In this document: positions 20,040 to 29,000 of the stretch, in pieces | Position numbering within the stretch: position 1 is the first letter of the stretch | Layout: the number at the start of each line of letters is the position of its first letter | From: Diprion similis | Taxonomy: Eukaryota > Arthropoda > Insecta > Hymenoptera > Diprionidae | Assembly: GCF_021155765.1 (NCBI RefSeq) | Contig: NC_060112.1 | Coordinates: 25,262,001 to 25,326,000, forward strand | DNA: 64,000 bases | Direction of reading: 5' to 3' | Translations under genes and position numbers: made by a program | Notes under the pieces: model-generated | Database searches by the model: none | The model's input: the letters and a program-made list of their open reading frames with translations, nothing else | What the model was told of the DNA's origin: nothing

Positions 20040-23000
20040 ATGATGTTCACCGGTTCGCGTACCAAACGAAGAAGTACCACTGGCGGAGGTTCTGGAAGAA
20101 AGTCGTCTCTTGAGCACAATCGTCCACATTTACGTGCTGGCGCTGAAGGATATACTTACAGGCAAGATTATATCCATCTTTGAAATATTTGTGCAGTATT
20201 TCAGATCGAATCGATTCAATCGTATTGTCATAATTTTATACTGTGGCAAACAAATCACTGATATCGATAAAAAAATCAGTAATGCAAACGGCGGTCCTAC
20301 ATTTTCACAAGTCATTCTGATTGATTTACGATTAATGATTTATTACACTTTGTTCATCAGACAATTTTCTTGGCTTTGATCAGACCGTAATTCGAAATTT
20401 TTATTTCAATCATTCCTACAATTGAAACCTTCCGATGTAAATTCACATTTAAGTTTATCCTGTTTAAAATTTATTGCGGTAAACAGCAACTCAGAGATGT
20501 ACTTCTCTGTTTGTAAATTTCAGAACAAGAGTTCCAGCTTTGGTGAATCCATCAGATCTTCCACCAGCTAGCTCGGGAGGAAGGACCTATGTATACAGAA
20601 CAAGGATACCTCATAGAGAAAATGACGCTGGCGCTACATCGCGATCGTCTCCCGAGAATAATGTTGGGGGTCCAATAACTAGGAGAAGAGGTGCGGTCAA
20701 ACATAACAAGGTTCACATAGTTCGAGGGCATCGATTGGTCGCCAAGTTCTTTAGACAGCCAACATTTTGTGCATTTTGTAAGGATTTTTTATGGTGAGAT
20801 TTAAAAATTAATATCACATTTCTACTCGTTTACATATATATATATAATATATGAATATATGTATAAGGATCAGATATTGTGATTAGGTGTAGCGACAATT
20901 CAGGAATTTATAAACATAAAACAGACAGTTTTTCTGTCAGCCTGTAAATCCATAATAGATCAAAGATGCATTTTTCAATAACAAAAACAGACGGATGAAC
21001 AAAATCCAACCACGCAAAGTGCGTTTATTAACAATATAGATTTAAGTCGTAATAACTTGGTCGAACGGATCCAGAAACTGCATCTTCTGGTGTGTCATTA
21101 TTCGAGTAAATAGAAGAAAATAAAAGGTTGCTATCTTAGAATCGACACTTTAAAATTCCAGCTCACCTCGATATAAATAGATCGCGTTGCTGTTCAAACA
21201 CATTGTTTAATCGACCCCTTTACGCAGATATAGGTACAGTTTAATTGAAGCTTTGCCTTTTAGAACTGTTTCAAACAGTTCCAGATTAAAGATTATAATT
21301 TATATTTGCAATTTCAGGGGTTTTGGAAAACAGGGATATCAATGTCAAGGTTGGTGCATATTTACGATTATTGCTTATCATAAATCAAGCCCTGATAAGA
21401 GAAAAACTAAAATACAATATTTTTTTCCGTTTTGTTGCAGCATGTCAGACAGCAGTGCACAAAAAATGTCACGATAAATTGTTGACCAAGTGCCCAGAGA
21501 GCGGCCGCGAGTCGGAAACTACAATTGTAAGTTTTCACATTTCGATATGATAACAATCTGTTTGCCAATTATTCATTACTTTCACTTATTTTTTTTAATG
21601 ATTTTTAGATGTATTGGAGCGTATAGAAATTAATTTTCTTTTACGCCACACGTAATTAATGTTATGAACGTTACGAGTGAACTGAGTTCCACTTTTTTTC
21701 TTTTCTCTTTCTTCCCAATTTCAGTACCTAAGAGAACGCTTTAAAGTTGATGTACCACATAGATTTCGACCCCATACATTCATGTCGCCAACATTCTGTG
21801 ATCATTGTGGATCTATGCTGTATGGTCTTTTCAGACAGGGTTTGAGATGCGACGGTGAGTACAAAATTTTTTTTAATTTATTCAACAATTATAGTTATAA
21901 GTGTTCAATAAGTTCAACAATATAAGGAGGAACAAATTTTCCTCTTAAGTAAAGCATGATTACAAAGATCACAGTTGGATAATTTTTGCCAACATTGCTT
22001 ACTCATTGATTTGAGCTACAAAGTGTTGCAAGAATTTCCGAAGAAACCATAAACTCTTTTGCCTGCGATCACATGCATAAAGCAATGGTTTATTGAATGA
22101 AATTTTAGTGTTTATATCTTGATGTTACATAAGCTGGCAGAATCTGTTAAATGTTGAATGAAATTCTGCGATTGGATTATCTTAATCGTAATAATTTCAT
22201 AGGAACCCGTGGCATTTTGAAGGTAGATGGAGTTAGATCTGTTTGATTGTTAGCTAGCTAGTGGCTTGCACATGATTAAAGCATGATTATTAAGTATGTA
22301 TGTATATATATTGTATGCGTTTAATTAATGCAATTAGATGGTGTGGTGAATTGCATGGTTGTGTATACTTCGCTGATGCATTTTCGTGTTGCAACTACTT
22401 GTATTCGTTGGGTTATTAGTGTTTAGGTGTATAGTTAGACGGTGGAAGTCTTATATACTAGAATTCTATTATTATACTAGGTCGCTGGCTTACACTCAGT
22501 CGGTCTTGGATCTCCAAACCATAAGAACGTGCTCCTCAACTAAGTTTCCTAAATGTATTTTAAATCATTTTAGTAAATAGTTAATCGGTTTGAATATCAT
22601 TTAAATAATGCCTCGGTATGGCGATGGCTCTCCGTACCAATTTGGTACGTCATTTTCGAACCACAGTTCATTGATGACAACTACAGGTTTCGGGCGGTAA
22701 GAAATTTGTAGAATTTTAACCAAGTTAAATTAACCGTTTGCCAATTCCAAGCCACAAAATTGTCATTCCAAAATTCTCGTGTATTTTATACAACCATTGC
22801 GACTATCTTTGAACTTTTATTGCCATGGACTAAAACACTTGGCAATGCTTTCTATGTGATTCTCTTGCAGGTAGTGCTAATTAATACTACTGATCTAATT
22901 AACAGAAGTGAACGGGTGATTAAAGATCTATTTGAAAATTTGATCACTCATATACGCGTAAGCAGAAATTCTAGGAAATTTCAATTGTGCTCGCAAACAC

Positions 23001-26000: not shown

Positions 26001-29000
26001 TACACCGACTAACGAATGGCCCAATGCAAATTTAACAATGGACAAATGGGAGAGCCAGAATAATTTATCAGATTTTGGTGAGTTTGACAAAGAAACAACG
26101 CCCACACCACCTAGCGGTCCAGATATCAGCATCAGTGCTCAATCTTCGAAGAAGAAGAAAATCATTAAAAGAAAGAAATCGACAGTTAAGAAATCGGCAA
26201 GCGAAGAAAACGGATTGGCTGAAGAAGCTGCTAAGCCAGTTTCAACAAAATCGCCGAAACCAAGTCCGCAAAATTCAGCGCAAAGTTCGGCGCTAAACTC
26301 GCCGCGTTCTTCTCCTAGATCAAGTCCCAGAGATAGTCCCAAACAGAGGCCCATGGATCTGATTAGAATGTTCTACACGACGCCAGGACCGTTATTGACA
26401 GCTACACCGAGAGACTTGTCCAAAGTAAGAAGAGGAGGAAAACGTCGAAAACGTCCTGTGTCGGTAGCTTCTTCAGCTAGCGATAGCACAGAAAGTGCAA
26501 GGAGTACTCAGAGCACTACAACAGAGAGCACCGAAGACACTAGTTCCACTTGTACCGAGGGTGGCGACGAGGCAAAAGATGATAAAAGACTAACATCCAT
26601 GAAAAGCAATGACTCTGGCTTCGATGGATCTCCAAGACTGACAAGTATACATATTTTTCATCACTCATTCTTACAATGAGCATTCTTTTCTTTTCACATA
26701 ATTTGAATTACAGTGGATTGAAGTGTCGTGTGATTTGTGCACTGTATCTAACTGTTGTAATTACCACACGTCCAGTTGGATGAGTATTTTTTAACTTCGA
26801 GAATATATTCATCAGATTCAGTGACAAATCTTTAGTAATGCTTTCATTAAAAATCAGGGTGAAATATAGGGGATTAAGAAATGGCATAAATGTGCCCGTC
26901 GATAATTCAAAAAAGTTATAATCCCAGGTTCGAATGCAGTTTTGCTAATTACTACTGATATTGCTTATGTTTGTTGCTACTTGTGAATGAATATGTTGAT
27001 TGTTTCACTTTTGATCCATCCAAGTCGACCTTAAACTTTCAATATGCCACGAGATCCTGTGCTGAATACAGATCGGATGCTAAAAGGTATGTGGAATAAA
27101 CTCTACCTGCATTTTGACATGTAAATATAGATTGCGACATGGCCTGTCATAAGAAGTGCGAAAAGTTGACCGGAAACCTGTGTGGATTGAATCAAAAACT
27201 TGTTGCTGAAGCTTTGCAAGCTCTGAAAAGGGGTAAGTCAGCTTGTAAGTTATTCGACGTCTTTATTTTCGTTGTAGGAAAAACTATTTGAAAAGAATGT
27301 TGTGTAATTGAGCACATGCGATGTCAGGTAGTTAGTTATGACCGATTGGAATTTTCTAAGGTGTTATTACGCACAACAGAACCTATTTATACGAAACCCT
27401 ACCTCTATTCACTTACAGCATGACGTCAGAAGATCTATTTCTTTTAGATGGATCTTTTGATGGGCTCTGCGTGGGTGCTGCTGCACTGTGTATTATTGAA
27501 ACAATTTATCTCGAATACATTTGCAAGTCGGAATTTCAACAGAAGATTCACATATTATATAATACTTAACGTTAATGGAGAATCAATTGTTCATTTGATA
27601 CAACAATAAGTAATGGATCTTTTAATTCGCGAATACTGCTGAACAGGTTCTAAATATAAAACGATCGGCTGCCAAGTCTATTCTTGAAAAATGTCCCCCC
27701 AGCCAAAGTTGCTAGAAGTATTTAAATGCCAGTATTAAGGCAATTACAATGCTCGATGGGAAAAATGTGCCAAATGAATTTATCCAAGATTACATCAGAA
27801 ATTAAGTGGATACCAATGTCCGAATAACTAGCTACTTTGACCGACTACATCAATAACATATGGCACGATGAGATATTTGAGATAAAGAAAATGTTTGATA
27901 TAATGGGAATAAATTTCATATCTTCTGGCATTGAAAATCGCTTTAAATGTCAAATTAGAAGATAAATAAGTTGAATTATTTGAATCGTAATATGGTCACC
28001 TGGTATTGTCGTACATGAACAGGTATCTAGTGAATGGGAACATTGTCATTTATATATATTTGTGTACAGTCTGTTTACAAACAGATGGCTTTGTGCTAGC
28101 AGGTGCCAATCTACGCGATACATTATTCTCAACTCTGAGTTCGAAGTTATTATAAAAGACTCGCTACCAATGAGAATTAGGTTTGCCGCTGAGTTACTAC
28201 TTTGAAAATCTTTGAAGCAAAGCAGTTCAAGTATGCTTTTAACAGTTGAATATGAAGTTCTGTTATTTTTCTAAATATGGACTTCTCATAATTGGAGAGT
28301 CTTGCTATGATGATCAACTAATTACCAAGTTGCTAACTACCTGTAAGCATGAGGTTTGTAAAGTTTAAAAGTTAAAAGGGTTTAAAAGAGCTCGGAAACC
28401 TATCTGAAGTATTTATTTTAAATTTTGGACAACTTGTAAATCTTATCACCAATTAAGGTAAATTAATCTGAACACGACCTTTTAAGCAAACCTTTGCATT
28501 TAACAAAATCTCTATGTTCTTGTAGTGTCAATATTTACTCCGATATTGCCGTAGAGAAAGGGTGACCATGATATTGCGTATAATGTAAATATGCCTAATC
28601 GGTTGTGAAATATTGATGTGTAAATGTTTGTTATTAGCCCCGTCACAATCGTCGGACAGCCAGAATTCAGAAAAGTCCAGCCGATTTTCAAGCGGACGTA
28701 TCACACCACCAGCAACCAATTTGCCAAGATTTAAGAAGTATTCAGTGACTGATTTCAATTTTCTTAAAGTAAGTTTAGAAACAGATTTTAAATAACGATA
28801 TTAAAATAGTTTTGTGTTATACAACATGAACTTGAACCTATATCCACGTGTTATTGTCACGTGTTCAACTTTATCTATTCTTAAACATCTTCTATAATCT
28901 CTGTATTTACTTGGTAATAGATGACTGGTTTAATATTACAGCTCGATTTTTGAACACTTTCCAGGTTTTGGGTAAAGGGAGCTTTGGCAAGGTGTTGCTA

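Follow-up and report, generated by a model that had tools for sequence, protein, structure and literature searches.

A 64,000-nucleotide window of the Diprion similis genome (contig NC_060112.1, positions 25,262,001 to 25,326,000; positions below are those of the window) carries a protein kinase C (PKC) gene on the forward strand. Nested in one of its introns, on the same strand, we observed a 3026-nucleotide coding exon (X2, 23619-26644) preceded by a candidate first exon (X1, 22608-22696). The host intron lies between E5 (21725-21854), which encodes the first half of the C1B domain with zinc ligands 1-4 and ends in phase 1, and E6 (27131-27232), a 102-nucleotide exon with phase 1 at both ends that encodes the second half with zinc ligands 5-8. 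That the intron splitting C1B harbours a coding exon, and probably the first exon belonging to it, is well supported. We also lean towards the reading that X1-X2 is fused to the kinase exons as a PKC isoform with an internal start, akin to PKM-zeta. Transcription would start near 22498, inside the intron, X1 would be spliced to X2, and X2 would be joined from a donor at 26644 to E6, or to the hinge exon E7 (28638-28768, phase 1 in) with E6 skipped; a shorter version would be joined from a stronger donor within X2, at 26077. The product, of 1434 or 1400 amino acids (1245 or 1211 from 26077), would keep the catalytic domain and C-terminal tail whole, lack the pseudosubstrate, C1A and a complete C1B, and gain 849-1038 residues in which Ser, Thr, Lys and Glu are abundant and which carry polybasic clusters.

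X2 is coding. Its open frame (23602-26679) runs for 1025 codons, whereas in 60 copies of the window simulated with a first-order Markov model the longest frame averaged 163 codons and reached 222 at most, and codon log-odds against local non-coding DNA were positive in all six X2 segments tested. Splice sites and promoter elements, among them the initiator (Inr) and downstream promoter element (DPE), were scored with matrices not trained on Diprion similis. On this scale the X2 acceptor, which is in phase 2 and had been proposed in an earlier note on this DNA, scored 8.19 (top 1.2% of 3491 AG), and the length of the open exon claimed there was confirmed as far beyond chance. The first in-frame ATG of X2 lies at 24205, and the 194 codons before it scored 0.338 bits per codon, a value matched by 0 of 2000 sampled non-coding stretches; because this coding-like stretch precedes the first in-frame ATG, X2 needs an upstream exon.

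In searches for relatives, X2 matched no Pfam family (the best hit, E 0.23, fell short of the cut-off), no NCBIfam family and no solved structure (best E 0.11). Within the 269 Mb genome (60 contigs) X2 was found once, the only other match being at chance level (E 4.5). Pattern matches to X2 in viral contigs (600) and in bacterial and archaeal genomes (580) yielded no confirmed relative; as these collections are not meant for insects, the null results say nothing on conservation. Five X2 peptide fragments had no occurrence in the literature collection searched.

X1 is likely the first exon that X2 needs. The earlier note had described a 30-codon first exon with a strong phase-2 donor, and we indeed found 89 nucleotides comprising 29 full codons and a shared 30th (R), with a donor at 22696 that scored 8.50 (top 0.8% of 3660 GT). 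An in-frame stop lies two codons before the X1 ATG at 22608. When 2000 introns of equal length were simulated, 2.9% contained a first exon that opens with an ATG, ends in phase 2, spans at least 60 bases and has a donor this strong; before X2 the real intron contains one (X1 itself) and the whole forward strand seven. Only 1.8% of non-coding stretches scored as high as X1 in frame (0.151). A candidate core promoter (22496-22530, forward strand) sits upstream, with an Inr (TCAGTC, A at 22498) and a DPE-like GAACGT (5/6) at +28, placing the pair 110 nucleotides 5' of the X1 ATG. At least 5 DPE positions accompanied 7 of the 83 Inr matches on the forward strand.

The same reading frame admits another way into X2. 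Both E1 (20040-20161), the first coding exon placed, and E2 (20524-20793) end in the phase that X2 accepts, phase 2, as X1 does. X2 could instead be an internal exon used alternatively by transcripts from the ordinary promoter, spliced from E1 or E2 and on to E6 or E7, with no second promoter and with X1 a chance open stretch; the corresponding products (1445 amino acids after E1, 1535 after E2) are open. The earlier argument that the large exon cannot be a cassette of the standard form holds for an insertion between E5 and E6, which meets a stop after 21 codons, and was incomplete in leaving out these two entries. We consider this origin improbable. The E1 donor is of the GC type, and an E2-X2 junction would cut C1A. 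X1 does not look like a chance stretch, with its strong donor, its Inr-like element and a stop in frame just before its ATG.

At the 3' side of X2, the cumulative coding score over 26200-26676 reached its maximum at 26646, about 30 bases 5' of the stop at 26677, and fell afterwards. The last 11 codons before the stop, from 26644 on, summed to -9.02 bits, and 0 of 998 eleven-codon windows in X2 were as low (1 of 998 when only amino acids were scored). Such a sum is typical of non-coding DNA, where the mean was -5.82 and 23% of windows were as low. Because coding character drops at 26646 and the last 11 codons resemble non-coding sequence, these results argue that the X2 exon ends near 26644 and not at the 26677 stop; the coding score leaves the splice partner unspecified.

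A serious rival, although one we hold to be rather unlikely, is that X1-X2 forms an independent gene on the same strand, nested in the intron and unrelated to the kinase protein. Such a gene would end at the 26677 stop (1049 amino acids) or, through a 69-nucleotide intron (26645-26713, forward strand), at 26714 (1040 amino acids, no kinase, ending SPRLTMD-stop), and both products are open. The short intron is G-poor (5/69; 1.2% of known-intron windows are as low) and its acceptor is fair, at 4.48 versus 0.99 at 27131, and an AATAAA at 27095, 36 nucleotides 5' of E6, could provide polyadenylation. The non-coding look of the 11 codons before 26677 weighs against the first of these ends. The second gains merely two codons, MD, before its stop, and since acceptors of at least 4.48 are frequent (11.2% of AG), the 69-nucleotide intron was in effect chosen after the fact.

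Several observations also weigh against a fusion of X2 to the kinase. The donor at 26644 (ACAA/GTATAC) scored 1.66, within the top 25.8% of GT, while the nine other donors of the PKC gene scored 5.12-10.37, with none of the nine below 5.12. The acceptor at 27131 is also weak (0.99, the lowest-scoring acceptor of the gene), though the standard form requires it. The earlier note had relied on the donor fitting the phase of E6; the phase-1 match is real, and the donor is neither strong nor rare near the ends of open frames. A phase-1 donor of at least 1.66 lies within 36 nucleotides of the stop in 209 of 1289 (16%) open frames of at least 30 amino acids, and the phase match alone is therefore no evidence. 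X1 scored less in frame (0.151) than in the +2 frame (0.174), and X2 over 24205-26423 scored the same in frame and in +2 (0.197 in each); since other frames score nearly equally, the codon measure reflects composition more than frame. Keeping half of a C1 finger would be odd, and use of the alternative donor at 26077 would drop 189 coding-like codons.

The donor at 26077 (TTTTG/GTGAGT, 8.38) was the strongest of 14 phase-1 donors of at least 1.66 inside X2. From it the frame is open into E6 (1245 amino acids) and E7 (1211 amino acids), as it is from a further phase-1 donor at 25843 (7.24; 1167 and 1133 amino acids, respectively). We kept 26077 as an alternative donor for a shorter version, disfavoured because the sequence downstream of it stays coding-like; it offers a second route to the kinase and leaves our assessment of a fusion as such unchanged. 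The donor at 26424 (7.03) was rejected, being in phase 0, which fits E8-E10 only, and followed by 73 coding-like codons (0.461 bits each).

From 26644, the route X1-X2-E6 to E10 is open and, as had been claimed, gives 1434 amino acids and a stop (4305 nucleotides), with 1038 residues before the E6 part. Its calculated mass is near 159 kDa, compared with 69 kDa for the standard form. Joining to E7 is equally open (1400 amino acids, no C1 remnant), E6 being a symmetric 102-nucleotide exon. Site strengths alone do not favour X2-E6 over the other routes. The earlier note had weighed the 26677 stop and an unrelated transcript as alternatives and had overlooked the 26077 donor, entry from E1 or E2, the E7 join and the end at 26714. 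Of its internal start for the kinase gene, the nested X1-X2 unit has held up, while the join to the kinase comes down to one weak in-phase donor and a sharp end of coding character.

A bridging exon between X2 and the kinase exons at 26928-27086 was rejected, as its phase-1 reading from 26928 meets a stop after 19 codons. Separately, an ATG-led stretch of 14 residues at 27044-27086 ends in a very strong phase-1 donor (AAAAG/GTATGT, 9.64) and fits E7, giving a 376-amino-acid kinase-only form, or E6 across just 44 bases. A stretch of this type occurred in 0.57% of simulated gaps of equal size and in 2.6% over 2161 bases. The forward strand has thirteen donors of this strength, including three within 44718-47225, where the open frame lies on the reverse strand.

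In the 1434-amino-acid conceptual product, the kinase domain is intact (231.2 bits, profile positions 2-263). Its C1 remnant covers profile positions 33-52 only and scores 12.3 bits, short of the 26.5-bit cut-off, so the loss of the diacylglycerol sensor that had been proposed would be correct if X2 joins the 3' exons. C1A is missing as well, and so is the pseudosubstrate, encoded in E2, a loss relevant to activation that the earlier account of the sensor had omitted. The predicted protein would share with a PKM an intact catalytic domain and the lack of a working diacylglycerol sensor and of a pseudosubstrate.

The 1038 new residues contain 13.4% Ser, 8.9% Thr, 8.7% Glu and 8.6% Lys, have near-zero net charge, and include basic clusters near residues 259, 874 and 971, together with 33 [RK]xx[ST] and 34 [ST]x[RK] sites. 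No strict pseudosubstrate-like [RK][RK]xAx[KR] motif was found among them, and two looser RxxAx[RK] matches were. The N terminus had been called disordered, a description that the charge-hydropathy values bear out weakly, as they are borderline (0.412 versus 0.415); of the 40 windows, 12 fell on the ordered side.

A last reading, which we regard as very improbable, is that X2 is a relic in decay, or joins some exon outside the ten placed, and gives no stable protein. The weak 3' junction of X2 is in keeping with such a fate, as are engineered PKC catalytic fusions without a pseudosubstrate, described as active but degraded (PMC8008189). What speaks instead for continued selection is the run of 1025 stop-free codons, together with the strong X1 donor and X2 acceptor.

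If X1-X2 is fused to the kinase, the product would be insensitive to diacylglycerol and free of its own pseudosubstrate, because pseudosubstrate, C1A and a complete C1B are all missing. The new N terminus might then set the location of the kinase in the cell and perhaps protect it from quality-control degradation, given that fusions without a pseudosubstrate are degraded whereas PKM-zeta is described as persistently active. Tentatively, a germ-line internal promoter in an insect novel PKC gene may produce a diacylglycerol-independent, pseudosubstrate-free kinase whose place and stability are set by its N terminus, as long as 1,038 residues and encoded almost entirely by one exon, which we think possible rather than probable. 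Such a kinase would be a PKM that arose from a novel PKC through gain as well as loss of sequence, and it would be a candidate for the PKC-delta transcripts that are reported to be memory-regulated in a wasp.

One of the closest known systems is vertebrate PRKCZ, in which an internal promoter in a large intron produces PKM-zeta, described as persistently active (PMC3517905). Like the X1-X2 model, it has a second promoter in a PKC intron that yields a kinase without the regulatory part (PMC3517905). PKM-zeta, however, derives from an atypical PKC and is an independent catalytic domain starting from a hinge methionine; here the gene is a novel-type PKC and up to 1038 residues are added. Another insect PKC gene, fly Pkc53E, produces a form (Pkc53E-PD) lacking 145 N-terminal residues, with an alternative N terminus that removes C1 sequence (PMC10318518). 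It is a conventional PKC, shortened to 525 amino acids, and the passages available from that source describe no long new N terminus. Mouse PKC-delta IV-VII are alternative N-terminal isoforms of PKC-delta itself and lack the C2-like region (PMC8248728), but they keep C1a and C1b, unlike the predicted X1-X2 product. In cancer, 3' PKC fusions (TANC2-, GGA2- and CTL1-PKC) have their pseudosubstrate replaced by a foreign N terminus and show agonist-free activity (PMC8008189); these are rearranged conventional PKCs, unstable in cells, whereas the arrangement here is a germ-line gene structure.

Two nPKC-delta transcripts of the wasp Cotesia glomerata are reported to differ in their response to memory training, and the authors caution that several transcripts assigned to one gene may also represent alleles, paralogues or misassemblies (PMC4617343). 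It is not certain that this is the gene examined here, because the authors name PKC98E as the fly nPKC-delta homologue and the available passages are silent on how the transcripts differ (PMC4617343). PKC-delta is described as mediating the spacing effect on fly memory consolidation (PMC11524582). The passages available from PMC12992598 name CG10524 only as a wasp gene picked for knock-down, for which double-stranded RNA could not be made. Were a second, agonist-independent form to exist, knock-downs aimed at the shared exons would hit two different kinases, and the gene would be a natural case in which to study how a PKC that lacks autoinhibition avoids being degraded. For Drosophila, FlyBase may include a Pkcdelta protein far longer than the 671-amino-acid form. 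Should that protein contain an X2 relative, the finding would be an already annotated conserved isoform. No description of an X2-kinase isoform appeared among the titles and abstract beginnings of the matches listed in our literature search.

The standard form of the PKC gene was assembled from ten exons (E1-E10, all on the forward strand) placed by homology, phase and splice sites. E1 ends at 20161 in an apparent GC donor (ACAG/GCAAGA), in phase with E2 and open into it. E2 encodes an 11-residue pseudosubstrate and the first part of C1A, which continues through E3 (21318-21349) and ends in E4 (21441-21526), where a linker follows. Downstream of the C1B exons and the hinge, E8 (28965-29459) covers the kinase domain from the N lobe to the activation loop, E9 (29663-29917) the C lobe, and E10 (30669-30875) the AGC C-terminal tail and stop. 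The standard product as placed has 609 amino acids, with pseudosubstrate, C1A, C1B, kinase and C-terminal tail, and matched PF00130 in two stretches (114 bits), PF00069 (229.8 bits) and PF00433 (40.5 bits). No C2 family was found in this 609-amino-acid model, whose upstream part may be incomplete.

Compared with isolated kinase chains among the best 60 of 131 structure rows, the kinase scored highest with theta (440-442 bits), followed by eta (400), alpha (392-394) and beta II (388-391); no chain named PKC delta was among these 60. Full-length PKC-beta chains outscored the isolated kinase chains because the C1 part matches too, the 609-amino-acid product aligning to PKC beta (8se2) in two stretches. 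Ten residues of E2 align with ARKGALRQKN of PKC beta, a stretch which we take to be the pseudosubstrate. With two C1 domains, a kinase domain, the C-terminal tail and theta as the best-scoring isolated kinase chain, the gene is, on its predicted protein, a novel-type PKC of the delta/theta class.

The intron between E5 and E6 measures 5,276 bases and cuts C1B in phase 1 after zinc ligand four, before ligand five. Of the 22 C1 matches in the genome, seven stop at profile position 32, that of the PKC gene included, and we read three paralogous loci (L011, L012 and L013). The C1 halves start 201 bases apart in L012 and 239 in L013, where the intron is short, with no open frame of at least 150 codons between them in L012 and only the one bearing the second half in L013. 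In L011, two C1 first halves were present, a second half was not found by pattern, and no open frame of at least 150 codons was observed on the same strand. As the same split position recurs in other loci, the position of the intron looks old. The large insert was seen in the PKC gene only, among the loci examined. An origin of X2 from repeats was unsupported, as a search over 21855-28637 gave just short, diverged pairs (ten direct and ten inverted).

Two further strong acceptors were observed near these exons. No evident exon follows the one at 22871 (9.71), in the X1-X2 intron. The other, at 27448 (9.18) between E6 and E7, leads into a phase-1 frame that stays open for 40 codons. Elsewhere in the window, an open frame of 835 codons on the reverse strand (44718-47225) resembles what we take to be a neurotransmitter-type transporter, and several open frames on the forward strand (32863-35103) presumably encode PDZ domains of a multi-PDZ scaffold, which they resemble.

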